NCBI GenBank assembly: GCA_963580285.1
Contig: OY757021.1
Location: forward strand, 99,376,149-99,440,148
Length of the DNA stretch: 64,000 nt
From: Lucinisca nassula
Taxonomy: Eukaryota; Mollusca; Bivalvia; Lucinida; Lucinidae
Reading direction: 5' to 3'
In this document: in pieces, positions 13,591 through 56,250 of the stretch
How the letters are laid out: every line of letters begins with the position of its first letter
Position numbering within the stretch: the stretch's first letter is position 1
Program-made: the position numbers and the translations under genes
The notes under the pieces: model-generated
Databases searched by the model: none
What the model saw: the letters and a program-made list of their open reading frames with translations, nothing else
What the model was told of the DNA's origin: nothing

Positions 13591-14024
13591 TCTAGAGTGA
13601 TGACAATATTTCTCTAAAAATAGTCATAGGGACCTTGACTTGAGGCAGTCGGCCGCGAAGTAGATCTTGCTCAAGATATTATCATAAGCATCTTTTGTGT
13701 GAAGTTAGATTAAAATCATAAATGTAGGCGGTAGAGCAATGACAAAGTATTTTTGAAAATAGCCATAGTGACCTTGACCTTGAGGTCATGACCTAGAAAG
13801 TCAAAGCAACTCGAGATATTACCATAAGAAACATTTGTGTGAAGTTCTATTAACATCCATCAATAAATGTAGGCACTAGAGCGATGACAAAGTTTTTCTA
13901 AAAATAGCCACAGTGACCTTGACCTTGAAAGTAAAAATAGCTCGAGATATTGTCATAAGGAACATTTGTGTGAAGTTATACTGAAATCGGTGAAGAAATG
14001 TAAGCGCTAGAGCCATGTCAAAGT
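13590..14024. repeat. TGACCTTGA satellite, segment 1
   Basis: About three units of a 130-144 bp repeat with the order CTAAAAATAGCCACAGTGACC, CTCGAGATATTGTCATAAGG, AACATTTGTGTGAAGTTATA, GAAATGTAGGCGCTAGAGCG. Segments 2 and 3 are the same array, separated by the Naiad B and BEL insertions. Confidence 0.9.
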
Positions 14025-15607
14025 AGAAGTAAAACAAAGATCAGGAATTGATACAGTTAACTTACTCCATCCATAAAAGACACCAAAGGGAAAGAAATAC
14101 AAACATTAAGCGACCAGACCATAATGGAAACCTAAACAAAGGTAGGCCATATGGACAGTCACTTTCCCACAAAATGGCCATATGGCCATCCAAAATTAAA
14201 AGACACAAGTGATACACACAGTAAGTAACAAACAACAACATAAATAAATCGCCACAGAAGAGCCGCCTTGGAACGGTCAGTGGAAGATTTCCACTGGGGG
14301 GCTTAAATCGATTTTACGTGGCCACAATCCTCGCCCTTACTTCCGTCGCGATTTAGACAAAACATTTGTTCAGTCCGCATGAAGGCCTCCTAACTCATCA
14401 GTGCAACATCTCCGTGAACACAGAAATCAAAGAACCACAGAGGTGAGACAACGGTGAGGACTCGACAGCAAGAAACCACTGAAATGCTGGAGCAAAAGAA
14501 AACCAACAGTTAGACTCCGATGAGCCCGACCAGAGACAGAGCATCAGGCACCAACCAACATTATCTCTTTAATTTTCAATAAGCCTTTACGTTGGAGCCG
14601 TCATACAATCTGAGGCCTGACCCACCGGCGTGCAATTAAAGAGGGAAGCAAAGTTGCCAACCGTGATTGGGTTAACTACCATGCATGCAGTCTGTCGTAT
14701 AATATCCATGTTGTACCCAATCTTTTTATATCGAAGAATGATTTTACGAAATTGGGTGCTGAAGTCATTGCGGTTATATATTTTTCTGAATTTATATACT
14801 AAGTCACCATAAAATTCGGGTTCCGATAGACCTTGTTGCAGAAGAGATTTAAGTCCAATATTGAATTTTGAAATTAAATCAGAATGGCGTCTATAAAATT
14901 TTGAAAAGGCTTTGCGTAGTTTATGGTACCGATGACCCTGATTAAGGAGTTTAGCCGTTAATAATTTATTACGAGTGTTGAAGTCAGTTACATGACTACA
15001 CACTCTAGCAAATCGAATTAATTGCGAAATATAAACGCCATAGGATGGCGCACGAGGAACATCACCATCCAAAAAAGGAAAATTTACAATCTCAAAATCA
15101 AAGTCATCGCGTTTATCATAAATTTTGCACGAAACAAATCCATCTACAATAGATAGATGTAAATCCAAAAACGGGGCCTCGGTATCAGAAGAATTTGCTT
15201 TATTTAACTGAAGTTCTAGGGGGTAAATCTGACTGATCAAACCATCAAAATAGGTATTATCAATATTTAATAAATCATCTAAATATCTAGAAGTAGAGCT
15301 AAAAGCTTCAATAATTTCAGATTGGTTATCAATGGAAAGCGACAAAATGAAGTCTCTTTCATAACAATACAAGAACAGATCAGCCACAAGAGGTGCGCAA
15401 TTAGTACCCATCGGAATACCCACAATTTGTCTAAATAACTTAGTACCGAATCTAATATAAATATTGTCAAGTAGAAAGGTGAGGGCATCACACACTTTCT
15501 GACATGACCAAAGTGTATAATTCTTATGCTCTTTAGAAGTGAAAAATGCATTTCTGACATTACATGCAAGATAGAGAGAATCTTCTCTGTGAAAAGCCCA
15601 TTCAATT
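14025..15607 (-). mobile_element. Naiad-type element, copy B, 5'-truncated, inserted in satellite
   Basis: The minus-strand element runs from a breakpoint in the RT (IEWAFHREDS) to the common 3' terminus, including about 560 bp of 3' UTR. AAAGT occurs on both sides (14020-14024 and 15608-15612), but AAAGT also abuts other copies, so the duplication is uncertain. The satellite continues in register on both sides. Confidence 0.9.
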
Positions 15608-15684
15608 AAAGTTTTTTTAAAAATAGCCACAGTGACCTTGACCTTGAAAGTCAAACTCACTCGAGGTATTGTCATAAGGAACAT
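14587..15684 (-). pseudogene. Penelope-like reverse transcriptase fragment fused to satellite (copy B)
   Basis: The ORF is 365 codons. The first 25 or so come from satellite DNA read in frame; the element begins at about LIEWAFHREDSLYLACNVRN. Motif B (GIPMGTNCAP) and motif C (RYLDDLLNID) are intact, and it ends at the same stop as copy A. RT motif A, the linker and the endonuclease are missing. B and F differ at only about three residues over the shared part. It cannot encode a complete enzyme. Confidence 0.85.
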
Positions 15685-16406
15685 TTGTGTGAAGTTATAT
15701 TGAAATCAGTGAAGAAATGTAGTCGCTAGGGCGATGACAAAGTTTTTTCTAAAAAAAGCCGCAGTGACCTTGTCCTTGAAAGTCGAAATCGCTCGAGATA
15801 TTGTCTTAAGGAACATTTGTGTGAAGTTATATTGAAATTGGTGAAGAAATGTAAGCGCTAGAACCATGAATTTTTTTTTCTAAAAATAGCCACAGTGACC
15901 TTGACCATGAAAGTGGAACTCGCTACAGATATTGTCATAAGGAACATTTGTGTGAATCGATTTTGAAATTGGTGAAAAAATGTTAGCGCTAGAGCAATGA
16001 AAAAGTTTTTCTAAAAATAGCCGCAGTGAGCTTGACCTTGAAAGTTGAACTCTTTCGAGGTATTGTCATAAGGATCATTTGTGTGAAGTTATATTAAAAT
16101 CGGTGAAGAAATGTAGGCGCTGGAGGGATGGCAAAGTTTTCATAAAAATAGCCATTGGGACCTTGACCTTGAAAGTGGAACTCGCTAGAGATATTGTCAT
16201 AAAGAACATTTGTGTGAAGTTATACTGAAATCGGTGAAGAAATATAGGCGCTATAACGATGACAATTTTTTTCTAAAAATAGCTACAGTGACCTTGACCT
16301 TGAGGTCATGACCTTGAAAGTCGAAATCGCTCAAGATATTGTCATAAGGAACATGTGTGAAGTTATATTGAAATCATTGAAGAAATGTAGGCGCTAGAGC
16401 AATGAC
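15608..16406. repeat. TGACCTTGA satellite, segment 2
   Basis: About six units; GAAGTT marks starts near 15691, 15823, 15954, 16085, 16215 and 16359. Most units here are about 130 bp and lack the GGTCATGACCTT block present in the 144-bp form. Confidence 0.9.
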
Positions 16407-16720
16407 TGTCGCGAATGGCGCGAAGTTACGACGGAGCCATTTCATTGACTGTACGGTGCACGTGATGTAATAACTGCACGTGCTTCTGACGGAGCCTGGT
16501 GTCGTCGGAGCCCTTCGATTTCTCGTGCAGCTAGGGTTTTAAATGCTGCACGTTCGTTTGTGGTGAGATGCCTCTGCTATATAAAGACAGAATTTTGTTA
16601 TTATTATCAATGTAAATAGGGGAATAAAAAGTTAAAAGGTGTATGTTCTTATCTTTCAATTAAAAATCTAAATTGTGTGGTAGATGAATTAAAAATTGGA
16701 TTAAAAGGATCTCTGCCACA
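16407..16720 (+). repeat. BEL/Pao 5' LTR
   Basis: 314 bp, TGTCGCG...GCCACA. It carries a TATA box TATATAAA at 16578-16585 and AATAAA at 16623-16628, so it has the parts for promoter and polyadenylation. Confidence 0.95.
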
Positions 16721-16786: not shown

Positions 16787-18409
16787 ATGTCTACACAAAT
16801 TTCATACCTAAAGGGTATAAGGAGAAGGTACAGGAATTTCCTTGAAAAAGAAATAGCAATTGCTTCGGACATTCTACACTATGATCCTGATCAGATCGAC
16901 GTAGATAGGGTCCTAATTGAAATAACAAAATGCATTGAAAAAATGAAAATGTACAGTGAAAAGGTTGAAATTCAAACAGAAAAATTGTCATGTGCTCTTG
17001 ACGAGACGGAAAGTGATTATTTGGACACTATCTTAGGACAAGATAGCAAAATTTGTGCTGATGCAATGGAGTGTTGCATCGATTTAAAGCAAATGAAATA
17101 AACTTTGATTGAATCAAAAGAAAAGGAAACTGTTACGAGTAAATTAGCGACAAAATCGGATGCAGAAAAACTTGCTGACATGCAAAACGTCATATTTACT
17201 CAAATGAAGCAGCAACAGGAACTTCTTGACCATCAGCAAAATAAAATGAAGGAACAGGAAAAAATAAGTGCGTTAGAAAAAAGTAGTTCTGTGAAGCTTC
17301 CGAAGATTGATATAGTTTCATATAGTGGTGATCGTTTGAAATGGAGTGAATTTTGGGATTCCTTTGAGTGCACAATACACAACAACAGTAGGCTTTCAAA
17401 CATAGAAAAATTCAGCTATGTTATGAGCAAGCTATCAGGTGAAGCATCCCGTGTAGTGTCTGGTTTGGCTTTGTCACATGAAAATTACAATATTGCCATC
17501 GCGAGTTTGAAGGAACGTTTTGGCAACAAACAAGAAGTCGTAGATTTGCATTACAGCCAGATTATCAATCTGCAGGTTGCAAGTAACAATACGTGTAGTT
17601 TGAGGTTGCTCCTTGATAGGATTCAAAGGCACCTACGTAGTCTCGAAGTGTTAAAACAAAATATCAACCAGGATGTGTTTATTTCTATGGTGAAGGCAAA
17701 ATTGCCACAGGAAGTTTTACTTCAGCTTGAAATCATGAAGGGCGCAGATGATGAGTGGGATACACAGAGATTGATTGAAACGCTGCGTAGCTATGTAAAA
17801 GCGCGTGAAAAATCTGAGGTAAAACAAAAGCCGACGGAGCACAGTTCTAAGGGATTCGAGGGAAAAAGCAAATCATTCGTAGGCCAAAAACCAAGCCAAA
17901 GTCAGTCAAAACCTTCACAGCATTTTGATTTTAGACAAAGGGTTGATAAGCGTGCATCGACGTCCATAGGCTCGGCGGAGGCACTTGTAGCTGATGCCAA
18001 ACAGATGTCAGGTGTAAATTACTTAGAAATGTGCCGATATTGTTCTAAACACCACTGGAGTGACGAATGTCCTACGTTTCGAACTTTAAAGGACCGGAAA
18101 CAACAGTTAAAGGACAGCTGCTTTAAATGTTTAAGAATTGGCCATCTTGCCAAGGAGTGTAAACGGAGCAAAGTGTGCGTGCATTGTGGGAAAGCTAATG
18201 ACCATCATAGGAGTTTATGTCCAAAGAAGTTCAAACAGTCAAATGACGTTCGATCACCACAGGAAGTGAATGCTTTGACGGAGCAAAGTGGAGTACAAGG
18301 TGAAAATGCTCTGATCTCATCTGGAGAATTCGTCCTGATGCAGACTGCAAAGACAGAAATCAGAAATCCCGACAGTACTAGAAGCCAGACTGTGCGGACT
18401 TCTCTTTGA
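16787..18409 (+). pseudogene. BEL/Pao Gag
   Basis: I start it at the ATG at 16787 (MSTQISYLKG), since upstream starts would need GTG. A TAA at 17099-17101 interrupts the frame, which then continues unshifted. The middle contains the BEL Gag core (DUF1759-like), KLPKIDIVSYSGDRLKWSEF through ASLKERFGNKQEV. The C-terminus has three zinc knuckles: CRYCSKHHWSDEC, CFKCLRIGHLAKEC and CVHCGKANDHHRSLC. The product would form the retrotransposon particle and bind RNA. The frame ends at 18407-18409, where the protease frame takes over, either as a frameshift mutation or as a programmed shift. The TAA argues for decay. Confidence 0.9.
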
Positions 18410-18792
18410 TTCTGGTTCCCAAAGGACGTACATAACCGAACATCTGGCGGAGCAACTTGACCTGAAGAGAAACGGCCAAGAACAGATAAAACTCGCCACG
18501 TTAGGAACTTATACACCAAAGACAATAACAACAACGTCTACAGAACTGAACCTTACACTTAACAATGGAGAGTATTTCACTATTCGTGCAAACATCGTGC
18601 CTACTATCAGTGGAACCATCCAACGGAATTCAGTGAAGCTGGTTTCCAGTCGAATAGAACATCTGGTGAGAAGTGTTGAGTTAGCTGACAGTATTCCTAC
18701 AGAAAGTGAGTCATCTACCATTGAGTAACTGATTGGTAACGACTACTACCTGGATCTAGTTCTTTCTAAAAAAAATTGAAATACAACCAGGC
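18370..18792 (+). pseudogene. BEL/Pao aspartic protease region
   Basis: In a different frame from Gag, the segment gives LLFDSGSQRTYITEHLAEQL, the retropepsin active-site pattern D-S-G (DUF1758-like). It continues through IPTESESSTIE to a TAA at 18726-18728. Then LIGNDYYLDLVLSKK leads to an 8-A run (18768-18775) where the frame shifts again into the RT ORF. Protease would cleave the polyprotein. Two lesions in about 50 bp make it inactive as it stands. Confidence 0.8.
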
Positions 18793-21700
18793 TTGTACTT
18801 TCTTTCGTCTAAACTAGGTTGGATCCTCACTGGTCGAACAACAGACACTCATAGTGGTGACACAACGCAGTCAAGTTTGTTCGTCCTTACATATGGGAAC
18901 GGTATTACAGGTACAGAAGGATTAACTTCCCTTGATTCCACTCTGCCAACAAAGCCTGACTTGGAAGACTTCTGGAATGTGGAAGGCATAGGGATCGTAG
19001 ACCACCCACAATGCTCTGATAATGAAAGTGTATTACGTCAGTTCAATGAGACGTTAAAGTTTGAAAACGGTCGTTATCAAGTGACCTGGCCGTGGAAGGA
19101 GGAGTTTCCTGAGTTACCTGTAAACAGAGAACTTGTTGTTGGTCGGCTGAAATCGGTTGTGTCAAAACTGAGGAATCAACCAGAATTCTTACATAAATAT
19201 GATTCCATATTAAAGGACCAGTTAGGAAAGGGAGTTATAGAGACAGTGAATGGTGTTGACAGTGGAGCAATGATACACTATCTCCCACATCATGCAGTAG
19301 TTACTCCAACAAAGTCAACAACAAAGCTGCGCATTGTATACGATGCATCTGCAAAGACAAAAATGAGCAACAAAAGTCTAAACGAATGCCTCTATAGGGG
19401 ACCTGTTCTTCTAAAGGACCTGTATGGAATTCTCCTCCGATTTAGGCTGAATAGAGTAGGGATCGTTGCTGACATAGAGAAAGCATTCTTGCAGATCGGT
19501 CTACAGTCAAACCAGCGGGATGTGACTAGATTTCTTTGGTTGAAGGATCTGGAAAATGCTAGTATAACTCGTGACAATATACAGGAGTATCGTTTTTGCA
19601 GAGTACCTTTTTGTGTGATTTCTAGCCCGTTTCTGCTGGGAGCCACCGTTGAACATCACCTTGATTCGTACAATTGTGAGATAGCAAAAAGGCTTAAGGA
19701 AGACATTTATGTTGATAATGTGATTTCTGGAACAGAATCAGCAGGTGATGCAATTCAGTTTTACAACGGAGCAAAGGCTATATTCTCTGATGCATCACTT
19801 AACCTTCGTGAATGGCTATCAAACAGCAGTGATGTTAACAATATTCTGCCAGCAGTAGATAAATCCTCATGTCGGACTACTAAAGTTCTAGGACACATAT
19901 GGAACACTGAAAACGACAGTATATCTTTGAAAAACACAGTAATGCCTACAGAAGCACAAGAGCCAACCAAACGCATTGTTCTGAAAACAATAGCATCCGT
20001 GTTTGACCCTCAAGGTCTGTTTTCTCCAGTATTACTCCGTGGGAAGGTTATGCTTCAAACATTGTGGTGTAAGGGTCTTGACTGGGATGACACGATTCCT
20101 CGTGAGGATTTACATGCATGGTCGGACATAAAAGTAGACATTCAAAATATCTCAGATTATCAGCTACCTAGATGTGTTAAGATGGAAACAAATTGTGACA
20201 CTCAGAACCGGCTAGTTTGTTTTTGTGATGCTTCTTCAAACGCATATGCTACTCTGATATACCTACACCAGACAGATGGATATGATTCAAAGGTGGATTT
20301 ACTGTTCGCTAAAACAAGGCTCACACCTGTGAAGGGAATGACCATACCTAGAGCAGAGTTAATGGCTGTACTGATTGGTGTTAGTTGCTTAAACTTTGTG
20401 CAACAACAATTGAAACTGTCTATAGTTGACAATTTCTTGTGGACAGATTCTCAATGTGTTCTCAAATGGATTTGTAGTGACAAAGATTTGATAGTGTTTG
20501 TAGCAAACAGAGTTCGTGAAATAAAATCTCATAGTGTTGTTTCATTCGGATATGTTTCTACAAAGGAAAATCCAGCAGATATTGCTACACGCGGTTGTAC
20601 ACTACAGAAGATTTTTGAAAATGAACTTTGGTGGCAGGGTCCACAGTGGTTGAAAAAGCATCCAACAGAATGGCCAGGGTCAGAGGTCAGTATGAATCAG
20701 CAAGCAAGATATGACTATGAATCAGAATTGAAGAAACACGGGGAATCTAAAGAAGCAAGTTGTCTTTCTTCTACCAGAAGTGCCTGCGAAAGTGTTAATC
20801 AGTTGCATTCCCCATTCGAATTAGACGATAGAAAATATTCTTCAGTGACAAAACTGATTAGAGTTACCGCATATGCACTGCGGTTTATCAATAAGGTAAG
20901 AAAGTGTGCCAATCAATGTGCATATTTGACTAGTGAGGAGCTTAAAGACGCTGAAAGGATGTGGATGTGGATAAGATTCATTCAAAGGAAACACCATGCT
21001 GACGTATTTCACGCTATCTCTGGCAAAACGCAAAATAATTTACAGAAACAGCTAGGGTTGTATGTAGATGAACTAAGTCTGTTACGGTGCAAAGGTAGAC
21101 TCGATAATTCTGACCTTACAGAAGGTGCAAGGCGACCAGCGCTACTACCCACCAAGGAAAACTTCACACGCCTTATGATCGAAAGAATTCACAAACAAAA
21201 CTTTCACGCAGGTGCATCTCAAACCCTCAGTCAAATAAGGAACTCATTCTGGATTCCTAAGGGTCGCGCATGTGTTCGACAAGTGATTCAAAGTTGTATG
21301 GTTTGTAGAAGGCACGAGGGAGGCCCTTACAAACTTCCTCCAGTGGCACCATTGCCACCACTTCGAGTTACAGAAGCACCACCTTTCTCTCGAACAGGAT
21401 TGGATTACTTAGGACCACTGTTCATAAAGAGTGCTGAAGGAGCAAAGAAAATTTGGGTGTGTTTGTTCACTTGTCTTGTGATTCGTGCCGTGCATTTGGA
21501 AATTATACAGGATATGACAGCCCAGGAGTTCCTTTTGTGTTTCAGGCGATTTATTGCGCATAGAGGCTTACCAAGTGTGGTAATTATTGATAACGCAAAG
21601 CAATTTAAATCAGCAAGTGAATCGCTCGATTCTGTGTGGAAATATGTGACACAGTGTGAAGACGTGCAAAGTTATTCCTCTAATGTTGGAACCAAATGGA

Positions 21701-22359
21701 TATTCATTGTTGAGATGGCCCCCTGGATGGGTGGGTTTTACGAAAGGCTTGTAGGACTCGTAAAAAGAGCGCTGCGTAAAACACTAGGAAAAAAGTTATT
21801 GACACTCATTCACATGCAAACGTTGATCAAAGAGGTAGAAGCAGTGTTGAATTCCCGACCATTAGTTTATGTCGGTGAGGATATCAATTCTAGGGTAACG
21901 CTCACTCCTGGACATTTTCTTACACTGAATCCGCGAATCGGTATCCCAGAAAGTGATGTTGGAGAAAATGAGTACATACCTTGTGAAAGCACTGGAACAA
22001 AATTGCTAGAAATGTGGAAACAAGGTCAAAAACTACTCGATAAGTTCTGGAACACATGGAGAGAAGAATACTTACTTAGTCTTAGAGAAAGAACACAATC
22101 CCAAATACAGAGTAAAAGAATTCAGTCCTCCCATTTTCCAACCGCTGGAGACATTGTGCTTGTAAAGGACGACATTCCTAGGGGGTGTTGGAAATTAGCA
22201 AAAGTCGTTTCCCTTGTATCAAGTCGTGACGGAGAAACACGTTCTGCGAAGGTACAATTGCCTTCAGGGCGGGTCATAGGACGCCCCTTAAATCTGTTGT
22301 ACCCGTTAGAAATAACTGAAAATGTAGACACAATTACCCCGCAGAGTATTTCAAGTTAA
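18793..22359 (+). CDS. BEL/Pao Pol: RT, RNase H, integrase
   Basis: The ORF is 1188 codons without a stop. The N-terminal part ends the protease (FLSSKLGWILTGR). RT shows KLRIVYDASAK, VADIEKAFLQIGL (motif A) and DIYVDNVISG (motif C as YVDN, a form seen in Pao-type RTs). RNase H shows CFCDASSNAYATLIYL, IPRAELMAVLIG, LWTDSQCVLKW and STKENPADIATRG. The integrase has an HHCC finger (HKQNFHAGASQ...CMVCRRH), then TGLDYLGPLF (Asp), VIIDNAKQF (Asp) and MGGFYERLVGLVKRALRK (Glu). The C-terminus is DUF5641-like (PTAGDIVLVKDD...GRVIGRPLNLLYPLE). All catalytic residues are visible. It is normally made as part of Gag-Pol; the upstream lesions probably silence this copy. Confidence 0.95.
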   Translation: MYFLSSKLGWILTGRTTDTHSGDTTQSSLFVLTYGNGITGTEGLTSLDSTLPTKPDLEDFWNVEGIGIVDHPQCSDNESVLRQFNETLKFENGRYQVTWPWKEEFPELPVNRELVVGRLKSVVSKLRNQPEFLHKYDSILKDQLGKGVIETVNGVDSGAMIHYLPHHAVVTPTKSTTKLRIVYDASAKTKMSNKSLNECLYRGPVLLKDLYGILLRFRLNRVGIVADIEKAFLQIGLQSNQRDVTRFLWLKDLENASITRDNIQEYRFCRVPFCVISSPFLLGATVEHHLDSYNCEIAKRLKEDIYVDNVISGTESAGDAIQFYNGAKAIFSDASLNLREWLSNSSDVNNILPAVDKSSCRTTKVLGHIWNTENDSISLKNTVMPTEAQEPTKRIVLKTIASVFDPQGLFSPVLLRGKVMLQTLWCKGLDWDDTIPREDLHAWSDIKVDIQNISDYQLPRCVKMETNCDTQNRLVCFCDASSNAYATLIYLHQTDGYDSKVDLLFAKTRLTPVKGMTIPRAELMAVLIGVSCLNFVQQQLKLSIVDNFLWTDSQCVLKWICSDKDLIVFVANRVREIKSHSVVSFGYVSTKENPADIATRGCTLQKIFENELWWQGPQWLKKHPTEWPGSEVSMNQQARYDYESELKKHGESKEASCLSSTRSACESVNQLHSPFELDDRKYSSVTKLIRVTAYALRFINKVRKCANQCAYLTSEELKDAERMWMWIRFIQRKHHADVFHAISGKTQNNLQKQLGLYVDELSLLRCKGRLDNSDLTEGARRPALLPTKENFTRLMIERIHKQNFHAGASQTLSQIRNSFWIPKGRACVRQVIQSCMVCRRHEGGPYKLPPVAPLPPLRVTEAPPFSRTGLDYLGPLFIKSAEGAKKIWVCLFTCLVIRAVHLEIIQDMTAQEFLLCFRRFIAHRGLPSVVIIDNAKQFKSASESLDSVWKYVTQCEDVQSYSSNVGTKWIFIVEMAPWMGGFYERLVGLVKRALRKTLGKKLLTLIHMQTLIKEVEAVLNSRPLVYVGEDINSRVTLTPGHFLTLNPRIGIPESDVGENEYIPCESTGTKLLEMWKQGQKLLDKFWNTWREEYLLSLRERTQSQIQSKRIQSSHFPTAGDIVLVKDDIPRGCWKLAKVVSLVSSRDGETRSAKVQLPSGRVIGRPLNLLYPLEITENVDTITPQSISS

Positions 22360-23449: not shown

Positions 23450-23466
23450 ACACTTCCTGCTGGGAG

Positions 23467-23780
23467 TGTCGCGAATGGCGCGAAGTTACGACGGAACCAT
23501 TTCATTGACTGTACGGTGCACGTGATGTAATAACTGCACGTGCTTCTGACGGAGCCTGGTGTCGTCGGAGCCCTTCGATTTCTCGTGCAGCACGGGTTTT
23601 AAATGCTGCACGTGCGTTTGTGGTGAGATGCCTCTGCTATATAAAGACAGAATTTTGTTATTACTGTTAATGTAAATAGGGGAATAAAAAGTTAAAAGGT
23701 GTATGTTCTTGTCTTTCAATTAAAAATCTAAATTGTGTGGTAGATGAATTAAAAATTGGATTAAAAGGATCTCTGCCACA
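23467..23780 (+). repeat. BEL/Pao 3' LTR
   Basis: 314 bp, aligned without gaps to the 5' LTR at an offset of 7060, with about eight substitutions. TATATAAA is at 23638-23645 and AATAAA at 23683-23688. No obvious polypurine tract precedes it (CACTTCCTGCTGGGAG). Confidence 0.95.
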
Positions 23781-24947
23781 ATGACAGTTTTTCTATAAAT
23801 AGCCACAGTGACCTTGACCTTGAGGTCTTGACCTTCAAAGTCAAACTCTCTCAAGATATTGTCATAAGGCACATTTGTGTGAAGTTATATTGAAATCAGT
23901 GAAGAAATGTAGGCGCTAGAGCGATGACAAAGTTTTTCTTAAAATAGCCACAGTGACCTTGACCTTGAGGTCATGACTTTGAAAGTCGAACTCGCTGAGA
24001 TATTGTCATTAGAAACATTTGTGTGAAGTTATATTGAAATCAGTGAAGAAATGTAGGCGCTAGAGCGATGACAAAGTTGTTCTAAAAATAGCCACAGTGA
24101 CCTTGACCTTGAGGTCATGACCTTGAAAGTCGAACTGGCTCGAGATATTGTCATCAGAAACATTTGTATGAAGTTATATTGAAATCAGTGTAGAAATGTA
24201 GGCGCTAGAGCGATGACAATTTTTTCTAAAAATAGCCACAGTGACCTTGACCTAGAGGCAATCACCTTGAAAGTCGAACTCGCTCGAGATATTTTTATAA
24301 GGAACATTTGTGTGAAGTTATACTGAAATTGGTGAAGAAATGGAGGCGCTAGAGCGATGACTAAGTTTTTCTAAAAATAGCCACAGTGACCTTGACCTTG
24401 AGGTCATGACCTTGAAAGTCAAACTCGCTCGAGATTTTTTATAAGGAACATTCGTGTGAAGTTATATTGAAATTGGTGAAGAAATGTAGGCGCTAGAGTG
24501 ATGACAAAGTTTTTTCTAAAAATAGCCACGGTGACCTTGACCTTGACGTCATGACCTTTAAAGTCGAACTCGCTCGAGATTTTTTTATAAGGAACATTTG
24601 TGTGAAGTTATATTGAAATTGGTGAAGAAATGTAGGCGCTAGAGCGATGACAAAATTTTTCTAAAAATAGCCACAGTGACCTTGACCTTGAGGTCATGAC
24701 CTTGAAAGTCGAACTCGCTCGAGATTTTTTTATAAGGAACATTTGTGTGAAGTTACATTGAAATTGGTGAAGAAATGTAGGCGCTAGAGCGATGACAAAG
24801 TTTTTTTCTAAAAATAGCCACAGTGACCTTGACCTTGAGGTCATGACCTTGAAAGTCAAACTCGCTCGAGATTTTTTTATAGGGAACATTTGTGTGAAGT
24901 TATATTAAAATCGGTCAAGAAATGTAGGCGCTAGAGCGATGACAAAA
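23781..24947. repeat. TGACCTTGA satellite, segment 3
   Basis: About eight units of mainly 144 bp; GAAGTT marks unit starts near 23881, 24025, 24170 and 24314. Most units contain TGACCTTGACCTTGAGGTCA followed by TGACCTTGAAAGTCGAACTC. Confidence 0.95.
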
Positions 24948-27939: not shown

Positions 27940-28850
27940 TTGCTTTGTCATTCCAGATACTTTGCAAATTCCTTTTTGTTTCAGCATGGTACGCAGATTC
28001 CGTCTTCATCTACACAGCTTCACGACCAAATAACGTCGGTACGACAGTCTAGGGCCGCTTTTCGGGGTTCGAGTTCGTGGTTACGCATCTCCAGACTGCG
28101 ATCTGTTAGCAGACGCAGGGGACCAATAATCAGAGAATCACGTAGCAACATGGCATCTGATTTACACCAACCTGATACTAAGAAACTCAAACAGAAAAAG
28201 CAGAAAATCTCTACCTCGCCTACATCTACTTCAAAATCTACCGGTATTAAAAGAAAGAAAAACAAGGTGTCTGGTACTTCTGATAAACATGATAAGATTA
28301 AGCGTAGGAAGTTGCAAGAATCAGAGGAGCGCCATCAACGTCTGAGTCCAGTGTTAGTGAGGATTTGGATTCCTCACCAGTGAAACATATCTCTCGTAAG
28401 TCCAACAAGAAATCTCTTGTATCTAGAAAGCAAATCTTAGATCTATTCAGCATATCCTCATCAGACCAATTTTCAACTGGCAGCAACTCAGATGATGACA
28501 ATTTGGGAATTTTTAAAGATACTCAGTCCTCTTCAGTCTCAAAACACATGAAGAAAAAAATTTTTAGTCGTGATTATATAAATTTATCATAGCTTTATTA
28601 TGGTAAAGAATCATTTACCTCAGTATGTATTTGAAAAAGTCTAAGGAAAATACGTCACTTCTATGAAGAGGGTCCCACAGCGGCAAATAGGGAACATCTT
28701 GAGCTGGTGTAGAGCATTTCAATTCTATTCTAGTATTTATTGCAAGAAATACTCAAAAGAAGGGTCATTTAATGCTCTTATTTTTCCAATCCTCAGGGAT
28801 TGCTTATGCAATTGCTTTTCACTGTTCCATCAATTGACATCCTTTAGATA
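27940..28850 (+). pseudogene. DIRS/Ngaro Gag-like protein
   Basis: A basic, Ser-rich and Lys-rich stretch (KKLKQKKQKISTSPTSTSKS) is followed, after a frameshift near 28330, by RKQILDLFSISSSDQFSTGS and KKKIFSRDYINLS. A further shift leads to ILSWCRAFQFYSSIYCKKYS. The last two resemble the conserved KKIxxxxYIDL and WxxAFxxYxSIY patterns I associate with Gag-like ORFs of these elements. There is no zinc knuckle. Several stops make it non-functional. Assignment is by pattern memory and is moderate. Confidence 0.5.
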
Positions 28851-28929
28851 CCTGATGAAGGTCATTATTAAACCGATGTTCGTTCCTCGTTGTATAACAA
28901 CTGCTTGTTTGACATCCCTGAACTTTAAG

Positions 28930-29650
28930 TAGACCTAGATGTTTTGTGGGCTTTTGTTGTACCTTCCTTCTCTTCGAAGGAATTATCTTCAGTAATTTTA
29001 TATGCTGTTTTACATAATGACCGGTATGAAGATCGCTTTAGTTTTGACGGTATCAAAACCTTCTAAACCCACATGAGTATCACAAATACATTTTAAATAT
29101 CAATATCACCCCTTAGATTACACTCTGCTTCTTCTGTACGGATTCCCCATTCTATTAAGAACTTTAATACTATGTTGCCTTCGGTATTGGTTAGACCCTT
29201 AAATTTGTCGTCTGTAACTTCAGTTAATCTCAATGGAGCAGGCAATACCAATGTTTTTGGGAGTAGTCTTCAACCATAGTGCAGTTTTTATTTTACTTTT
29301 GGTCCTTTGAGATCAGCGTGAATATTTTGAGAAATCAGAAATAAATTATTGGTTAAGACTCATATTCTAGACAGGTTTTTAATTATTTGGACCCCATTTC
29401 GATTTATATCAGTCTTTGAATCGACTGCCTATCCGAAATTCGCAAAATTGCAGTATGTTTCCCCTGGCTTTGTTTGCCGGATCATTACAGGGTCACTGAT
29501 GAGGCTTTATTAACCGAAACTACGTAGTATGACCCATCTTCTTTCTTGTAAATGTTTTCATTGCTCTTAAAGGAACTCATTTTCGATTTTTATTTGCCTT
29601 CACTGCAGCTGGTGTTGTGCCGTGTGGCGGCCGTAAAACGTCTCCCCGTA
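28930..29650. other. Unassigned stretch with internal direct repeats before Naiad C
   Basis: No protein recognised. Block X (CAACCATAGTGCAGTTTTTA...) occurs at about 29268-29310 and again at 29652-29694. Block Y (ATGTTTTCATTGCTCTTAAA...) occurs at about 29552-29584 and at 29694-29727. In the second place X and Y are adjacent. This could be a tandem or pseudo-LTR arrangement of the Naiad 5' end. Confidence 0.55.
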
Positions 29651-29969
29651 CATCAACCATAGTGCAGTTTTTATTTTACTTTTGGTCCTTTGAATGTTTT
29701 CATTGCTCTTAAAGGAACTCATTTTCGCGATTTTTATTCTTATAAGACTATCTCCTCTCAAATCGCCCATCCTTCGAAAATATACTAATCCGTGGAAAAG
29801 AAGTGGAATGTATCCTAGAATTTCTAAGTGCAATGCCAAGAGGTGCAGATGTTGTTCGCATTTAAGCACTGCGTCTACCGTTACTTCATCTGTAAACGGT
29901 AGACGCTTCTCTGTAGTTAACATGTCTGATTTGACAGGACAGTCTACAGATTTAATTTATCTAATTACA

Positions 29970-29972
29970 TGA
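29970..29972 (+). other. In-frame TGA 1, candidate selenocysteine codon (endonuclease)
   Basis: Frame-consistent (29694 plus 276). It lies directly after DLIYLIT, where I recall Cys in related endonucleases, and is followed by C (TGAC). Confidence 0.65.
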
Positions 29973-30407
29973 CGTGCTGCAAACTGTAATATGCAGTACG
30001 TCGGTCAAACTAACCGCATGCTTAAAACTAGATTGAATGAGCATTATCGTAGAATGAGTAAGCCTAAGAAAATTGACACTTTCTTGTACCGTCACTTTCG
30101 ACGTACAGTTAACATTGTTATACAACCAGTGGAAAAACTTTATTACGATGCTAATTCTACATCTAGATTCAAAATAATCAAAAGACATGAAGCTGAACTG
30201 AAATGGATTAAATTTTTACAGACCCCTTTTCCACTTGGATTTAATGACAACATTTATCATGAGGGTGATATTTCCAGAATGCCGGACTTTGATATTTTCT
30301 CGCTCCTGGAATGTCGAAAACGCAGAACCAGATCTCACGGCACCAGGAAAAATGGTAACTTTAAACGTAAATCACGTGCGTTTAAACGAAACAATACTAG
30401 ACTGAAG

Positions 30408-30410
30408 TGA
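30408..30410 (+). other. In-frame TGA 2, linker, conserved in copy D
   Basis: Lies 438 bases (146 codons) after TGA 1 in the same frame, between NNTRLK and the next segment. Copy D has the same TGA at 55406-55408. Context TGAC. I cannot tell which residue is expected here, so Sec, readthrough or an ORF boundary are all possible. Confidence 0.5.
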
Positions 30411-32737
30411 CTGTCAATTATATTATTAAATCATGGACGCCACTCTATGTTTTCATTTTTAAGTTCATTACCCGTTTCTGTTTTACGTCTTCTGGACACC
30501 GAGGCGAATAAATTCTACGATAGTTCTCATCAGTTATATGATGCGGCTCTCTTAACTAGAGGCTATACTCAGCATACTCTCCGTCCTTACATTGATTCTG
30601 AAATTAATCATAAACGCCATTTCTTCAAAATATCTTTCATTAATAAGGGTATGGATTTTATAGATTTGTCCAGTATCTTCCGTGAGAGATCGGTGGTTTC
30701 TTCCATTCCTGCTTATTTTCAAAATACTGAAACACCTATAATTTGCTATCAGTATAACAAACCTGTTAGATCTATCATTTTTAATTTCAATAAACTTGTT
30801 TCAGATCTTGATATAGATACTAATACTCCTGATTCATGTGATTGTAAAAACTCAAAGTATTGCTATCCTGCTGCTGGTCATGTAATTACTGGCAATTTGA
30901 AAATTATTCCTGATTCTAGGATAAGGAATATAATTTCTAAAGGACCGAAATATCGGTTTCCTTCTAAAATTGATTTCAGTAAATGTAGAGATGAAATCGC
31001 TGCTTCCTTGAATGAATTCGGTAACCGATGGTGTAAGCGAGAGTATGTTGAGCATAAGGCCCTTAAGGACTGGAAACTTAGCATTTTAAAACTAGTGAAT
31101 AAACGCATTTCTTTCTATTCTCAAAATACTAACTTATTACCTCCTAAGCCCAAGACGTCTTTACGTCATCTTAAACTAGGTATTCAAGAATTTCATAAGA
31201 AGTGTGTTTTGGCCCCTGCAGACAAGGCCGCTAACAACGTCGTCGTTGTGTGACGGTTCCACTATGTTAACACACTTAAGCAGGAGCTTGGTGGTACTAA
31301 GGCCTATGAACTTCAGCCTTTACCTGAAGAGAGAGCTAAAGTAGATAAACATGTTTGTCATTCAGCCACCAAGTTTGCTGTGTGTGTTAACGAAGGCCAA
31401 GACAAGCTTCCTACGCTATACTGGTAACCTAAACTTCATAAAAGACCTTACAAAGCACGGTTTATTGCAAATTCTAGCTCTTGCACAACCACTGAACTTT
31501 CTAAATTATTAACTTCCTGTCTTGCTGCTATTAAAACGCATGTGATTAAATATTGTGATAAAGTCTTTGAAAGATCAGGAAGAAATCTGTTTTGGTCTAT
31601 AAAAAATTCGAATGAGGTTTTAAATAAATTGAAATCCAGACATTTTCGTGCTTCAAGTCTGTCTACTTACGATTTTTCCACTCTTTACACTACCCTTCCT
31701 CATAATCTTATAACAGAAAAGCTTAATGATTTAATTGAATGGGCTTTTCACAGAGAAGATTCTCTCTATCTTGCATATAATGTCAGAAATGAATTTTTCA
31801 CTTCTAAAGAGCATAAGAATTATACACTTTGGTCATGTCAGAAAGTGTGTGATGCCCTCACCTTTCTACTTGACAATATTTATATTAGATTCGGTACTAA
31901 GTTATTTAGATAAATTGTGGGTATTCCGATGGGTACGAATTGTGCAACTCTTGTGGCTGATCTGTTCTTGTATTGTTATGAAAGAAACTTCATGTTGTCG
32001 CTTTCCATTGATACCCAATCTGAAATTATTGAAGCTTTTAGCTCCACTTCTAGATATTTAGATGAGTTATTAAATATTGATAATACCTATTTCAATGGTT
32101 TGATCAGTCAGATTTACCCCCCAGAACTTCAGTTAAATAAAGCAAATTCTTCTGATACCGAGGCCCCGTTTTTGGATTTACATCTATCAACTGTAGATGG
32201 ATTTGTTTCGTGCAAAATTTATGATAAACGAGGTGACTTTGATTTTGAGATTGTAAATTTTCCTTTTTTGGATGGTGATGTTCCTCGTGCGCCATCCTAT
32301 GGCATTTATATTTCGCAATTAATTCGATTTGCTAGAGTGTGTAGTCATGTAACTGACTTCAACACTCGTAATAAATTATTAACGGCTAAACTCCTTAATC
32401 AGGGTTATCGGTACCATAAACTACGCAAAGCCTTTTAAAAATTTTATAGACGCCATTCTGATTTAATTTCAAAATTCAATATTGGACTTAAATCTCTTCT
32501 GCAACAAGGTCTATCGGAACCCGAATTTTATGGTGACTTAGTATATAAATTCAGAAAAATATATAACCGCAAAGACTTCCGCACCCAATTTCGTAAAATC
32601 ATTATTCGATATAAAAAGATTGGGTACAACATGGATGTTATACGACAGACTGCATGCATGGTAGTTAACCCAATCACGGTTGGCAACTTTGCTTCCCGGT
32701 GGGTCAGGCCTCAGATTCTATGACGGCTCCAACGTAA
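30411..32737 (+). pseudogene. Naiad linker and reverse transcriptase (copy C)
   Basis: The frame continues unshifted after TGA 2. The linker holds the CxC motif (TGT GAT TGT at 30837-30845) in DSCDCKNSKYCYPAAGHV. Then come KGPKYRFPSKIDFSKCRDE, LAPADKAANNVVVV(TGA) and the RT core: LSTYDFSTLYTTLPH (motif A, about 31671), GIPMGTNCA (motif B) and YLDE at 32055-32066. The last is YLDD in copies A, B, D-remnant, E and F, so the second catalytic Asp is lost. TAAs at 31425, 31911 and 32436 are private; other copies have sense codons there. About 17 bp are missing near 32697, before the final stop. Confidence 0.85.
31251..31253 (+). other. In-frame TGA 3, candidate selenocysteine codon (RT)
   Basis: It follows the ADKAANNVVVV segment. 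The same TGA occurs in copy D at 56248-56250 and in copy E at 61214-61216 (minus strand), although neighbouring codons differ. From memory of related RTs, a Cys is usual after this hydrophobic stretch. Context is TGAC in all three. Confidence 0.75.
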
Positions 32738-33317
32738 AGGCTTATTGAGAATTAGAGAGATCTAATTCAAGGTAATGATGGTTGGTGCCTGATGCTCTGT
32801 CTCTGGTCGGGCCCATCGGAGTCTAACTGTTGGTTTTCTTTTGCTCCAGCATTTCAGTGGTTTCTTGCTGTCGAGTCCTCACCGTTGTCTCACCTCTGTG
32901 GTTCCTTTTTTTGTGTTCACGGAGATGTTGCACTGATGATTTAGGAGGCCTCCATGCGGACTGAACAAATTATTTGTCTAAATCGCGACGGAAGTAAGGG
33001 CGAGGATTGTGGCCACGTAAAATCGATTTAAGCCCCCCAGTGGAAATCTTTCCACTGACCGTTCCAAGGCGGTTCTTCTGTGGCGGTTTATTTATGGTGT
33101 TGTTTGTTACTTACTGTGTGTATCACTTGTGTCTTTTTATTTTGGATGACCATATGGCCATTTTGTGGGAAAGTAACTGTCCTTATGGCCTTCTTTTGTT
33201 TTGGTTTCCATTATGGTCTGGTCGCTTAATGTTTGTGATTCTCTCCCTTTGGTGTCTTTGATGGGTGGAGTAAGTTAATTGTATCGATTCCAGATCTTTG
33301 TTTTACTTCTGCTCTGA

Positions 33318-40447: not shown

Positions 40448-41720
40448 AAAAGTAGAAGTAAAACAAAGACTAGGAATCGATTCAATTAACTTACTCCACC
40501 CATCAAAGACACCAAAGGGAAATAAACACAAACATGAAGCGACCTGATCATAATGGAAACCTAAACAAAGACAGGCCATAAGGACAGTTACATTCCCACA
40601 AAATGGCCAAATGGTCATCCAAAATAAAAAGACACAAGTGATACACACAGTGAGTAACAAACAACAACATAAATAAACCGCCACAGAAGAACCGCCTTGG
40701 AACGGTCAGTGGAAAGAATTCCACTTGGGGGCTTAAATCGATGTTACATGGCCACTATCCTCGCCCTTACCTCTGTCGCGGTATACACTAATTTTGTTTA
40801 GTCGGCATGAAGGCTTCCTAACTCATCAGTGTAACATCTCCGAGAACATATCAATAAAAAAAAATACAGAGATGAAACAAGGTTGAGGACTCGACAGCAT
40901 ACAACAACAGAATTGCTGGAGCAAAAGAAAACCAACAGTTAGACTCCGAGGAGCCCGACCAAAGACGGAGCATTAGGCGCCAACCAACATAAAGAATACT
41001 AAAAAAAAATTTCATTTATGTTTTTACGCTGGAACCGTCATGTAATCTTAGGCCCGACCCACAGATGTGCAATCAAAGAGGGAAGCAAAGTTGCCAACCG
41101 TGATTGGGTTAACGACCATGCATGCAGTCTGTTTTATAAGATTTATGTTGTACCCAATCTTGATGTCTTTCCACTGACCGTTCCAAGGCGGCTCTTCTGT
41201 GGCGATTTATTTATGTTGTTGTTTGTTACTTACTGTGTGTATCACTTGTGTCTTTTGGTTTTGGATGGCCATATGGCCATTTTGTGGGAAAGTAACTGTC
41301 CTTATGGCCTTCCTTTGTTTAGGTTTCCATTATAGTCTGGTCGCTTAATGTTTGTATTTCTTTCCCTTTGGTGTCTTTTATGGGTGGAGTAAGTTAATTG
41401 TATCAATTCCTGATCTTTGTTTTACTTCTACTTTGATGAGTGGAGTATGTTAATTGTATCGATTCCTGATCTTTGTTTTACTTCTACTTTATATATCGAC
41501 GAACGATTTTACGAAATTGGGCACTAAAGTCATTACAGGCATGTATTTTTCTTAATTTATATACTAAGTCACCATAGAATTCGGGTTCCGATAGGCCTTG
41601 TTGCAGACGTGTTTTAAGTCCAACATTGAATTTTGAAACCAAATCAGAATGACGTCAAAAAACTTAGAAACGGCTTTACGTAGTTTATGATACCGATACC
41701 CATGATTAAGAAGTTTAAGT
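40448..41720 (-). mobile_element. Naiad mosaic H: minus-strand copy containing plus-strand 3'-end insertions
   Basis: A minus-strand 3' UTR and RT C-terminus run from 40448 to about 41160 (ending GTTGTACCCAATCTT). They resume at 41491 (ATATATCGACGAACGATTTT) and run to about 41720. The 330 bp in between are plus-strand Naiad 3' ends. RT code in this copy is broken and more diverged than A, B and F. Confidence 0.85.
41163..41490 (+). mobile_element. Naiad 3'-end insertion nested in copy H, with a tandem second 3' tip
   Basis: A 3'-UTR segment (TCTTTCCACTGACCGTTCCA...) ends at CTTCTACTTT near 41434. It is followed by a second, 56-bp 3' tip (GATGAGTGGAGTATGTTAAT...CTTCTACTTT) ending at 41490. 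Two ends in tandem match the complex insertion habit of Penelope-like elements. Confidence 0.85.
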
Positions 41721-51690: not shown

Positions 51691-53118
51691 CGAGGGCTGT
51701 GGTATCTGGGTTTAAAACAGTATTTTGTTGGATATAAACAACATTTTTGCAAAATATAAGATGGTTCATGATCTGACAGTACGTGTATGTATATTTTTGA
51801 CATTTATATATATGAATGCCTTCCTGCAGGACACATCATAATGATCAGTGAAAGTCAAGTTAAAGTGCACAAGACTGTACTATATTGTATATTGTTAGAG
51901 CCCTATATTAAGTAGTATAGTGTTACTGGTGGCATATAATGAAATTTGAGGGTTTTGTGTAAAAATGTGTATTTTCCTACCTGGAAAATTGACTTTTCAA
52001 ATGTCTAAAAATTTATTTTATTCCTGTAGTTAACTGATATCTTACTCTTTACATTAAAAATTTTTCATGAATCCTCACCACTAACTTTAAAAAAAACGTA
52101 TTCCTATTTTCAATGTTTTTATCAAAATTTTACATTTTCTGCCTTTAAAAAGTCAAATTGCTGTGCAGGCACGAAGCTGAAGGGTTTTTTGAGAGCTACT
52201 TGATATAGTCAGTGTACATCTAGCTATATAAATTAGCTCGACATCATACAATTTATTTTTATAATGTAATTTCTACTTGACCGGAAAATACTAGTTTTTT
52301 ATGTAAACATGTGCATTTTCGTACCCCGAAAAATGGAACTTTTTAAAAATATATTTTTTTTATTTTTTTCCTGTAGTTAACTTATACACATATATAACTT
52401 TTAACATCAAAACATTTTCAAGAATCCACACCAGTAACTTTTTAAAAATGTATTCCCATTTTCTGCGTTTTTTGTCAATATTTCCAAGTTTTTACCCCAA
52501 AAAAGACAGCTTTCTGTACACATATCAAGCTGAAACTTCTTTATCGCTACTTGACAACAGTAAGCTTATTTTTAGTTATTTAAATAAATTTGTTATAATT
52601 TAATGAAATTTTTATAATTAAATTCCTGTTTTTGGCGATTTTTATTTAAATTTCGAACATTTTCCCCCAAAAAATCAATTTCGCCAGGGAATATTTTTGG
52701 GGATTTTTTTCCTGTAAATCAGGACACCTCACTGATTCTGAAAATAGTGAAAACCCTTCTGAAGGAATTTGTTTGAGGTTCAATGCTATTTTGACCGGCC
52801 TAACATGAGAAAAACTTTGTACTGCAAGAATTATGCCACCCAAATACTTTCCATGTACAGATTTTCAAGAGTTTCTCTTTTGTTGTTGCCAAGAATAACC
52901 CAACTGACCTTTATTGATCTAGCCCATGTTTATCTTCAGCTGTATAATAGGAAAAAACAGGGACAAATACAAGAAAATGTGACAGACAGAAGCTGGCTTT
53001 TCCATCAAACAATAATGCAAATGTGTTTTACTTGTATACCAATTTTAAAGATTCAGAATCATACACTTTTCAAGATATACTCAAAAAATATTTTAGTTAC
53101 TGAATAACGGAGAGATGT
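51691..53118. other. Non-coding, AT-rich, with an imperfect duplication
   Basis: Phrases TTCCTGTAGTTAACT and AAGAATCC/TGAATCCnCACCA followed by TAACTTTTTAAAAA recur about 350 bp apart (about 52020 and 52370). The 112-codon ORF at 52769-53107 has no recognisable motif. Confidence 0.55.
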
Positions 53119-54682
53119 AAAGTAGAAGTAAAACAAAGATCAGGAATTGATACAATTAACTTACTCCATCCATAAAAGACACCAAAGGGAAAGAAATACA
53201 AACATTAAGCGACCAGACCATAATGGAAACCTAAACAAAGGAAGGCCATATGGACAGTTACTTTCCCACAAAATGGCCATATGGCCATCCAAAATTAAAA
53301 GACACAAGTGATACACACAGTAAGTAACAAACAACAACATAAATAAATCGCCACGGAAGAGCCGCCTTGGAACGGTCAGTGGAAGATTTCCACTGGGGGG
53401 CTTAAATCGATTTTACGTGGCCACAATCCTCGCCCTTACTTCCGTCGCGATTTAGACAAATAATTTGTTCAGTCCGCATGAAGGTCTCCTAACTCATCAG
53501 TGCAACATCTCCGTGAACACAGAAATCAAAGAACCACAGAGGTGAGACAACGGTGAGGACTCGACAGCAAGAAACCACTGAAATGCTGGAGCAAAAGAAA
53601 ACCAACAGTTAGACTCCGATGAGCCCGACCAGAGACAGAGCATCAGGCACCAACCAACATTATCTCTTTAATTTTCAATAAGCCTTTACGTTGGAGCCGT
53701 CATAGAATCTGAGGCCTGACCCACCGGCGTGCAATTAAAGAGGGAAGCAAAGTTGCCAACCGTGATTGGGTTAACTACCATGCTTGCAGTCTGTCGTATA
53801 ATATCCATGTTGTACCCAATCTTTTTATATCGAAGAATGATTTTACGAAATTGGGTGCTGAAGTCATTGCGGTTATATATTTTTCTGAATTTATATACTA
53901 AGTCACCATAAAATTCGGGTTCCGATAGACCTTGTTGCAGAAGAGATTTAAGTCCAATATTGAATTTTGAAATTAAATCAGAATGGCGTCTATAAAATTT
54001 TGAAAAGGCTTTGCGTAGTTTATGGTACCGATAACCCTGATTAAGGAGTTTAGCCGTTAATAATTTATTACGAGTGTTGAAGTCAGTTACATGACTACAC
54101 ACTCTAGCAAATCGAATTAATTGCGAAATATAAACGCCATAGGATGGCGCACGAGGAACATCACCATCCAAAAAAGGAAAATTTACAATCTCAAAATCAA
54201 AGTCATCGCGTTTATCATAAATTTTGCACGAAACAAATCCATCTACAATAGATAGATGTAAATCCAAAAACGGGGCCTCGGTATCAGAAGAATTTGCTTT
54301 ATTTAACTGAAGTTCTAGGGGGTAAATCTGACTGATCAAACCATCAAAATAGGTATTATCAATATTTAATAAATCATCTAAATATCTAGAAGTAGAGCTA
54401 AAAGCTTCAATAATTTCAGATTGGTTATCAATGGAAAGCGACAAAATGAAGTCTCTTTCATAACAATACAAGAACAGATCAGCCACAAGAGGTGCGCAAT
54501 TAGTACCCATCGGAATACCCACAATTTGTCTAAATAACTTAGTACCGAATCTAATATAAATATTGTCAAGTAGAAAGGTGAGGGCATCACACACTTTCTG
54601 ACATGACCAAAGTGTATAATTCTTATGCTCTTTAGAAGTGAAAAATGCATTTCTGACATTACATGCAAGATAGAGAGAATCT
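53119..54682 (-). mobile_element. Naiad-type element, copy F, 5'-truncated
   Basis: Minus strand from a breakpoint at RDSLYLACNVRN to the shared 3' terminus (AAAGTAGAAG... at 53119). Nearly identical to copy B, including the 3' UTR. Confidence 0.9.
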
Positions 54683-54735: not shown

Positions 54736-55345
54736 TGCCTGTCATAATGATTGCAAAGTTTACAAAGTTTGAAGGGTTCTTGAAAAAATCTTTGACAAAA
54801 ATTTATACCTTATCGAGGGAGGGTTGGAAGGACAGATAGGTGAATTGACAAAAGGAAAGACAGATGTAAAAGAGTATACACCATTTAATCAATATCGGGG
54901 AATAATAATGTCATCCAGATCTGTTCTAAAAATTGAAGCATTGATTTAAGATTGATTACATTTATATAAGGCCTACATTATTATGTCAGGTACAGACAAA
55001 ACATGAACTAATTTTGTTCTATAAAATGATTAATAAGGGTCGAGATATTTATCCCAAGTAAATGCAGGCTAGTCCTCACCAGCAAGATCAAGAAATGAAA
55101 AGACATTGTCTTACCCTGTTGTCGATGTATATACTCATATAAAAGAGGTATTAGAAACATACCAAATAATGCAGCAGCACAAGAATACATGGCGTCAGGT
55201 GTGGTAATTTGTAAATAAATAAATAAATTATACTCTTAAACTTACCATCAGTTAATATGACAACATTAGGTTTTGGCATACTATACACGAATTCATATGA
55301 TTATTATATATAATATGTAATTTTGTGGAGAACACTAGATCTAGA
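54683..55345. other. Non-coding stretch
   Basis: AT-rich, with short AAAT repeats near 55215; no gene seen. Confidence 0.5.
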
Positions 55346-55405
55346 AAAAAGGTAACTTTAAACGTAAATTACGTGCGTTTAAAACGAAACAATACTAGAC
55401 TGAAG

Positions 55406-55408
55406 TGA
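55406..55408 (+). other. Copy D equivalent of TGA 2
   Basis: Same sequence context (CTGAAGTGACTGTCAATTAT) as copy C at 30408-30410. Confidence 0.6.
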
Positions 55409-56247: not shown

Positions 56248-56250
56248 TGA
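56248..56250 (+). other. Copy D equivalent of TGA 3
   Basis: TGTGTGACGG context; the codons on both sides differ from copy C but TGA is kept. Confidence 0.75.

Follow-up and report, generated by a model that had tools for sequence, protein, structure and literature searches.

A young and numerous Naiad-type retroelement family of the bivalve Lucinisca nassula whose four in-frame UGA codons probably specify selenocysteine, with a predicted SECIS element that overlaps the final stop

Can a retroelement whose reading frame is interrupted repeatedly by TGA codons nevertheless encode a functional protein? The question is raised by a stretch of 64,000 nucleotides from the bivalve Lucinisca nassula (contig OY757021.1, positions 99,376,149 to 99,440,148; hereafter, the window), which contains copies A to G of a Penelope-like retroelement. 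In one of these, copy C, a preliminary description had recognized a single frame with recurrent TGA codons, and proposed that at least two of them specify selenocysteine (Sec) in place of Cys. From the sequence comparisons presented here, we consider it highly probable that the element represents a young, numerous Naiad-type family, in which four in-frame UGA codons (designated U1 to U4) are likely read as Sec under a predicted Sec insertion sequence (SECIS) that overlaps the stop codon of the open reading frame (ORF). The element thus likely makes a selenoprotein.

The frame itself is as originally described: from 29694 to 32438 of copy C, its only stops are TGA at 29970, 30408 and 31251 and TAA at 31425, 31911 and 32436, and the other five frames of this interval carry 45-132 stops each. 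Alignment of the copies confirmed that the three TAA codons are private to copy C, and that the TGA at 30408 recurs in copy D (55406) and that at 31251 in both copy D (56248) and copy E (61214, minus strand). The codons flanking the shared TGAs were said to differ between copies, which is true near 31251 but not near 30408, where copies C and D are identical over the codons shown. The limits of the frame are not those of the element. Position 29694 was ruled out as the element start, as copy C spans 28766-33316 with an ORF part from near 29009; since little of the stretch at 29272-29736 derives from the family, the described frame opens with 43 bases that do not belong to the element ORF. Likewise, 32436 was ruled out as the natural ORF end, because in the other copies the frame stays open until a TAA that corresponds to 32735-32737, a codon out of frame in copy C owing to a 16-base deletion. 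A fourth TGA of the family (U1) had been overlooked, since copy C bears GGA there, at 29937. Copy C is a dead copy, as evident from its private TAAs, the insert, the 16-base deletion and the GGA at U1.

The family is young and numerous. A search of the 2.93-Gb genome with the endonuclease part of copy C yielded 12,107 first-look candidates, and the best 150 of these were scored. They are 94-100% identical, lack TAA and TAG within the matched part and, in all but five of the 150 rows, show exactly two TGAs in the endonuclease match; being the best-scoring and therefore young copies, they do not form an unbiased sample. From these 150 candidates, 30 loci were drawn, and 20 longer stretches were taken for reading of the whole frame (the two sets overlap). 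TGA occupies U1 in 29, U2 in 27 and U3 in all of the 30 loci; of the 27 loci that reach U4, 26 have it there as well. In 27 of the 30 loci, no further stop interrupts the aligned positions that are covered. Six copies (L042, L043, L047, L053, L057 and one in L058) possess a complete frame of 1,097 codons with only the four TGAs, and a tandem array (L039) includes two units with a complete frame and three TGAs, U2 being TGT in the array. The intact L053 frame has four TGAs and one final TAA, where base composition would predict about 35 TAA, 19 TAG and 19 TGA. By chance, some 73 stops would occur in a frame of 1,097 codons, and the probability that four chance stops would all be TGA is near 0.005.

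The frame appears to be under constraint on both sides of U4. The ratio of nonsynonymous to synonymous substitution rates (dN/dS) between copy E, a member of an older subfamily, and the intact L053 is 0.07 before U4 and 0.13 after U4, at a dS of 0.4-0.7. In nine further old copies dN/dS after U4 is 0.16-0.24, with TGA at U4 in seven of them. Other stops mark seven of these nine copies as dead, such that neutral decay raises their dN/dS. Judged from these comparisons, purifying selection persists past U4.

The older subfamily was sampled using an old copy (L064) as query, which gave 44 matches; ten places at 91-93% identity were read together with L064 itself. In these 11 copies U1 is TGT in seven, TGC in two, TGA in one and TTT in one, and both U2 and U3 are TGA in all 11. 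The majority codons of the older subfamily and the young family differ at 65 of 177 positions, 44 of them silently. The codon counts at U1 indicate that two lineages in one genome differ, Cys versus UGA, at a single conserved Cys site.

The same sites were then assessed in 163 relatives, composed of all 43 from one search and, from another with 1,356, the 120 that were listed. Among those covering the respective site, U1 is occupied by Cys in 12 and Trp in one, and U2 by Cys in 13 and Trp in one; at U4 there are 31 Cys, 29 Trp and one Phe (from a row that looks misaligned). DNA was available for four relatives, namely the long open frames (TGA read through) from six records of the GTDB database, the other two falling short of the sites; TGT or TGC occurs at U1 in three of three, at U2 in three of three and at U4 in four of four. 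The proposal that Sec replaces Cys at 29970 and 31251 is thus upheld, as both positions are Cys in distant relatives at the protein and codon levels. TGA codons are present in two of the GTDB frames, two in L071 and one in L074, near the 5' end and away from the U sites. The Trp residues are probably TGA codons called under genetic code 4. The occurrence of Trp exactly at UGA sites in deposited relatives (P0001-P0004, P0019 and others) represents an annotation trap for selenoprotein elements. A separate observation concerns the source of the six GTDB prokaryote records (L071-L076; archaeal or bacterial metagenome-assembled genomes, mussel symbionts), whose Penelope-like DNA is most likely eukaryotic contamination. 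A scan of viral contigs gave 27 pattern matches, none of them a relative.

A SECIS-like hairpin occurs at the end of the ORF. In copy C it was matched by the Rfam model SECIS_1 (E 0.14, referring to 4,227 families and 2.5 kb), and it holds an AUGA and UGA core, an AA located 12 bases away from the AUGA, and a stem II. A purpose-built hairpin model, which has copy C among its source sequences, hits 32704-32808. Over 18 copies, 12 cells exhibit changes on both sides of a pair (0 of 500 shuffles), located in three stem-II pairs (14 of 500), 91.2% of the cells pair, and the covariation of 0.209 compares to 0.140 when shuffled (0 of 500) and to 0.097 or less in slid controls. The structure was taken from the match in copy C plus one stem-I pair, and this choice favours paired cells but not compensatory changes. 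The frame passes through the AUGA and the 5' arm to a TAA that constitutes the AA motif in copies A, B, D, F and G; in two of these, G and D, the piece upstream of this TAA contains other stops. The TAA stands at the same place of the hairpin in 19 of 20 young stretches (TGA in L055) and in nine of nine old ones. Met-Met-x-x-Thr ends the C-termini of 11 of 12 relatives (the 12 picked by motif) at the same place, which would correspond to AUGA at the same distance from the stop, if their stop is UAA. On this sequence evidence, the final stop of the ORF overlaps the predicted SECIS hairpin and supplies its AA motif. According to a review (PMC8310308), cellular SECIS elements are located in the 3' untranslated region, and that of fowlpox virus lies in coding sequence.

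The host possesses a candidate decoder: two strong hits to tRNA-Sec (80.0 and 77.4 bits) are found in the genome, the first of which is read by ARAGORN as tRNA-Sec with anticodon TCA. Clusters of weak hits to the same family (41-50 bits) occur on contigs C9 (near 84.0-84.4 Mb), C1 (near 147.7 Mb) and C15 (near 129-132 Mb), and are perhaps arrays of tRNA-Ser. As regards the host itself, COX1 of the mitochondrial contig is 92% identical to an unnamed protein, and its best named matches are to Novaculina, Ensis and Laternula at 65-67%, with nearly equal scores in other phyla; a tree of 31 rows places it next to Laternula, on long branches prone to mutual attraction, and COX1 thus points to a bivalve only tentatively. 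Together, the purifying selection past 31251, the SECIS-like element at the ORF end and the tRNA-Sec further support the original suggestion of Sec. The possibility that the host nuclear code reads UGA generally as an amino acid is considered below.

By model-based prediction, the element is a Naiad-type Penelope-like retroelement in which a CxC linker joins a GIY-YIG endonuclease to a telomerase-like reverse transcriptase (RT). The endonuclease is N-terminal and the RT C-terminal in the predicted protein, the order by which a Naiad is recognized. The model of the endonuclease (mean predicted local distance difference test, pLDDT, 63.7) best matches I-TevI, with template-modelling (TM) scores by target of 0.66-0.72 and Foldseek E values of 0.017-0.034. 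The Pfam GIY_YIG_2 match to the element (E 0.0056) is below the cut-off, and three relatives carry PF01541. Telomerases are the best-matching structures for the RT model (mean pLDDT 88.6; E 1.5e-10, TM 0.38), in which U4 is the final residue of the predicted strand 273-281. With copy C as query, a search by sequence retrieved no hits from the PDB. The units of the L039 array are arranged head-to-tail, each of 4,151 bp, with four differences in 3,951 bases, and in copy C the unit tail precedes the ORF. No hammerhead ribozyme was matched in the window at the gathering score, and a scan of seven element loci with a limit of E <= 1 was likewise negative. In PMC11167929, Penelope-like elements are said to combine a telomerase-like RT with a GIY-YIG endonuclease and to occur as tandem units with pseudo-long terminal repeats (pseudo-LTRs).

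A number of results weigh against this interpretation. Since the young copies are near-identical, their common TGAs are not independent and were rejected as proof. Retention of TGA at U4 was also rejected as proof: it is kept in eight of ten old copies, against a mean codon identity of 68% (P 0.33), which is no better than codons in general, and consequently the constraint argument rests on the downstream frame rather than on the U4 codon. In the copies near L053 (A, B, C, D and F), dN/dS after U4 is 0.27-0.96, with too few changes to be informative. The preliminary description had proposed to test whether the sites alternate only between TGA and TGC or TGT; this holds between lineages but not for each copy, as single copies carry non-Cys changes (GGA, TTA, TTT, TGG, AGA and a one-base loss), assorted alterations that are expected of dead copies. 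It had also called for a search with a SECIS model; the SECIS_1 match at the ORF end shows compensatory changes, but its score in copy C (23.8 bits) is below the gathering score of 35, the Rfam scan of the window at gathering gave no SECIS match, and when seven element loci were scanned jointly with SECIS_1 only L047 was listed (E 0.95). Further pair types in the hairpin are unexceptional (149 of 500 shuffles), pairing of stem I is lost in some copies, and the minimum-energy folds computed for four individual sequences do not clearly outperform those of shuffled ones (z -1.51 to +0.72). The evidence for host Sec machinery is tRNA-Sec only. As for the domains, no match of the endonuclease model reaches E 0.001, and the TM-scores of the RT model to telomerases are low (0.24-0.42 over the first 14 rows). 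Finally, U3 is on no conserved Cys, and the caution with which the TGA at 30408 had been treated was justified.

If the UGAs are decoded as Sec, then a host SECIS-binding protein, eEFSec and Sec-tRNA would serve to read them, and the product would be a single protein consisting of the GIY-YIG endonuclease, CxC linker and telomerase-like RT, by which the element would move via target-primed reverse transcription. In such a protein, the Sec residues of U1 and U2 would join the conserved Cys and His that surround the GIY-YIG motif and possibly bind metal, and that of U4 would lie in the fingers of the RT. U3 either has acquired a Sec despite not being a Cys site, or carries a UGA that is tolerated since the SECIS lets ribosomes pass.

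The alternative that survives best concerns this last site. It would be nearly an even choice to suppose that only U1, U2 and U4 function as Sec, and that U3 is a neutral UGA at a tolerant position, carried thanks to the SECIS. Among the 67 relatives aligned at U3, 38 have Asp and four have Cys (in loosely aligned stretches), with many other residues in the remainder, and the DNA of relatives reads CAA, GAT or TTC, all of which would suit a neutral site. Opposed to this is the uniformity of U3 within the host: TGA stands there in every one of the 11 old copies, and likewise in all young stretches that cover the site in two overlapping sets (30 and 19 stretches), such that the TGA at U3 is old in this genome.

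We regard as unlikely a partial read-through of the UGAs with ordinary amino acids, or their use as regulated stops that split the endonuclease from the RT, the hairpin serving for something else. Four serial UGAs would yield little full-length protein, U3 and U4 are situated between the endonuclease, linker and RT core, and 57 of the 163 relatives terminate at U4 or within two residues of it. U1 and U2, however, lie inside the endonuclease, where stopping would wreck the domain, and neither the Cys at U1, U2 and U4 in relatives, nor the Cys/UGA exchange at U1, nor the SECIS match is accounted for by ordinary read-through.

Even less probable is a family in which the UGAs are ordinary stops and whose dead copies are propagated in trans by the proteins of another element. 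The window would fit such a description, as its copies are truncated or broken, and copy C carries three TAAs in 29694-32438 and two more in its upstream ORF piece. This is countered by the intact copies elsewhere in the genome, with no internal TAA or TAG in 1,097 codons, by dN/dS values of 0.13-0.24 past U4 in old copies, by the location of three sites on Cys columns (U1 being TGT or TGC in the other subfamily), and by the compensatory changes of the SECIS-like hairpin. A nuclear code in which UGA generally specifies an amino acid can be dismissed as having a negligible probability, given a tRNA-Sec with anticodon TCA and the 138 matches to the GIY-YIG family in the genome, of which one has an internal TGA and two have TAA, indicating that TGA is no everyday sense codon there.

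Returning to Sec as the likely meaning of the UGAs, a further and more tentative proposal, to which we give slightly less than an even chance, is that termination and recoding are merged in one RNA structure and that Sec is freely added and dropped, as in the exchange at U1 and the gain at U3. Since the UAA would form the AA motif of the element's own SECIS, a ribosome that finishes the protein would melt the signal by which UGA is recoded.

Naiad Penelope-like elements containing selenocysteines were reportedly described in clams and spiders by Craig et al. in 2021, so that the kind of element appears to be already in print. Like the Naiads reported there, the present element combines an N-terminal GIY-YIG, a CxC linker and RT with tandem units, lack of a hammerhead, several UGAs and a bivalve host. 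It may differ from them in its four sites (one of them non-Cys), the stop inside the predicted SECIS and the Cys/UGA exchange. The stop-SECIS overlap, the non-Cys U3 and the within-genome exchange may be new; among the matches listed in literature searches, no paper was recognizable as dealing with selenocysteine in Penelope-like elements.

Other systems share some of these features. In the glutathione peroxidase of fowlpox virus the SECIS overlaps coding sequence, as it does here; the former is a viral gene acquired from a host (PMC8310308), whereas here, in a retroelement, the 5' arm of the SECIS is coding and the stop is the AA motif. Mollusc selenoprotein P, with up to 132 UGAs according to a title cited in PMC8310308, likewise exemplifies the decoding of multiple UGAs, but is a host protein. 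Within the L. nassula genome, Penelope-like elements with a C-terminal endonuclease (L001-L005, L007 and L008), which we take to be of the Penelope/Poseidon clade, have Cys at the equivalents of U1 and U2 near the GIY-YIG motif, as aligned by eye; unlike the present element they use Cys codons with no UGA, and carry the endonuclease at the opposite end.

The coordinates of the element and its copies are collected in Table 1. Several other elements are present in the window. An RVT_1 reverse transcriptase ORF (57097-58659, plus strand) lies mostly within the insertion that splits copy D. An LTR element, presumably of the BEL/Pao type, extends over 17105-22359 (plus strand) and includes DUF1759, Peptidase_A17, integrase zinc-binding and DUF5641 domains; it is flanked by repeats at 16404-16703 and 23464-23763, 97% alike, which may be its LTRs. 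Satellite-like arrays of 131-145-bp repeats are found on either side (13748-16422 and 23788-24810), and the element may have been inserted into a satellite array. On the minus strand, ORFs at 5732-9142 with RVT_1 and an Exo_endo_phos endonuclease probably represent a single broken element resembling a long interspersed nuclear element (LINE).

Table 1. Features of the Naiad-type element and its copies in the window
Feature	Position	Strand	Basis or remark
Copy C, whole extent, damaged Naiad-type element	28766-33316	+	blastn with the 4,151-bp tandem unit of L039
Copy C, unit tail 5' of ORF, pseudo-LTR-like	28766-28995	+	Corresponds to unit 3922-4151, 96%
Copy C, N-terminal part of ORF, two TAA inside	29009-29271	+	Corresponds to unit 6-268
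Stretch splitting copy C, about 465 bp, mostly foreign to family	29272-29736		Only 39 bp of unit sequence
U1, GGA in copy C	29937-29939	+	TGA in young family; mostly TGT/TGC in older subfamily
U2, TGA, likely Sec	29970-29972	+	Conserved Cys of GIY-YIG region in relatives
U3, TGA, possible Sec	30408-30410	+	No conserved Cys elsewhere
CxC (Cys-Asp-Cys) of linker	30837-30845	+	Sequence
U4, TGA, likely Sec	31251-31253	+	Conserved Cys ending a strand of the RT model
Private TAA, damage	31425-31427	+	TTA in copies D, E
Private TAA, damage	31911-31913	+	CAA in copies A, B, F, D, E
Private TAA, damage	32436-32438	+	TCA in copies A, B, F, D
SECIS-like hairpin	32710-32801	+	Rfam SECIS_1, 23.8 bits, E 0.14
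TAA closing the ORF in other copies, AA motif of predicted SECIS	32735-32737	+	Out of frame in copy C
Copy A, 5'-truncated	403-1906	+	SECIS-like hairpin 1298-1390
Copy B, 5'-truncated	14019-15610	-	Hairpin 14528-14620
Copy G, divergent 3' part	40449-41161	-	Hairpin 40957-41057; extra piece 41487-41717
Copy F, 5'-truncated	53112-54682	-	Hairpin 53627-53719
Copy D, part 1	55344-57181	+	TGA at U3 (55406) and U4 (56248)
Copy D, part 2, past insertion	59299-60083	+	Hairpin 59876-59980, compensatory changes
Copy E, older subfamily	60082-61399	-	TGA at U4 (61214)

If it is indeed selenium-dependent, the element would tie its transposition to the selenium supply and Sec machinery of the host. With thousands of candidate places in one genome, and subfamilies that carry UGA or Cys at the same site, the family offers a natural experiment on the replacement of Cys by Sec. 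The position of the stop codon within the predicted SECIS raises, in addition, the question of whether completed translation switches the recoding signal off.

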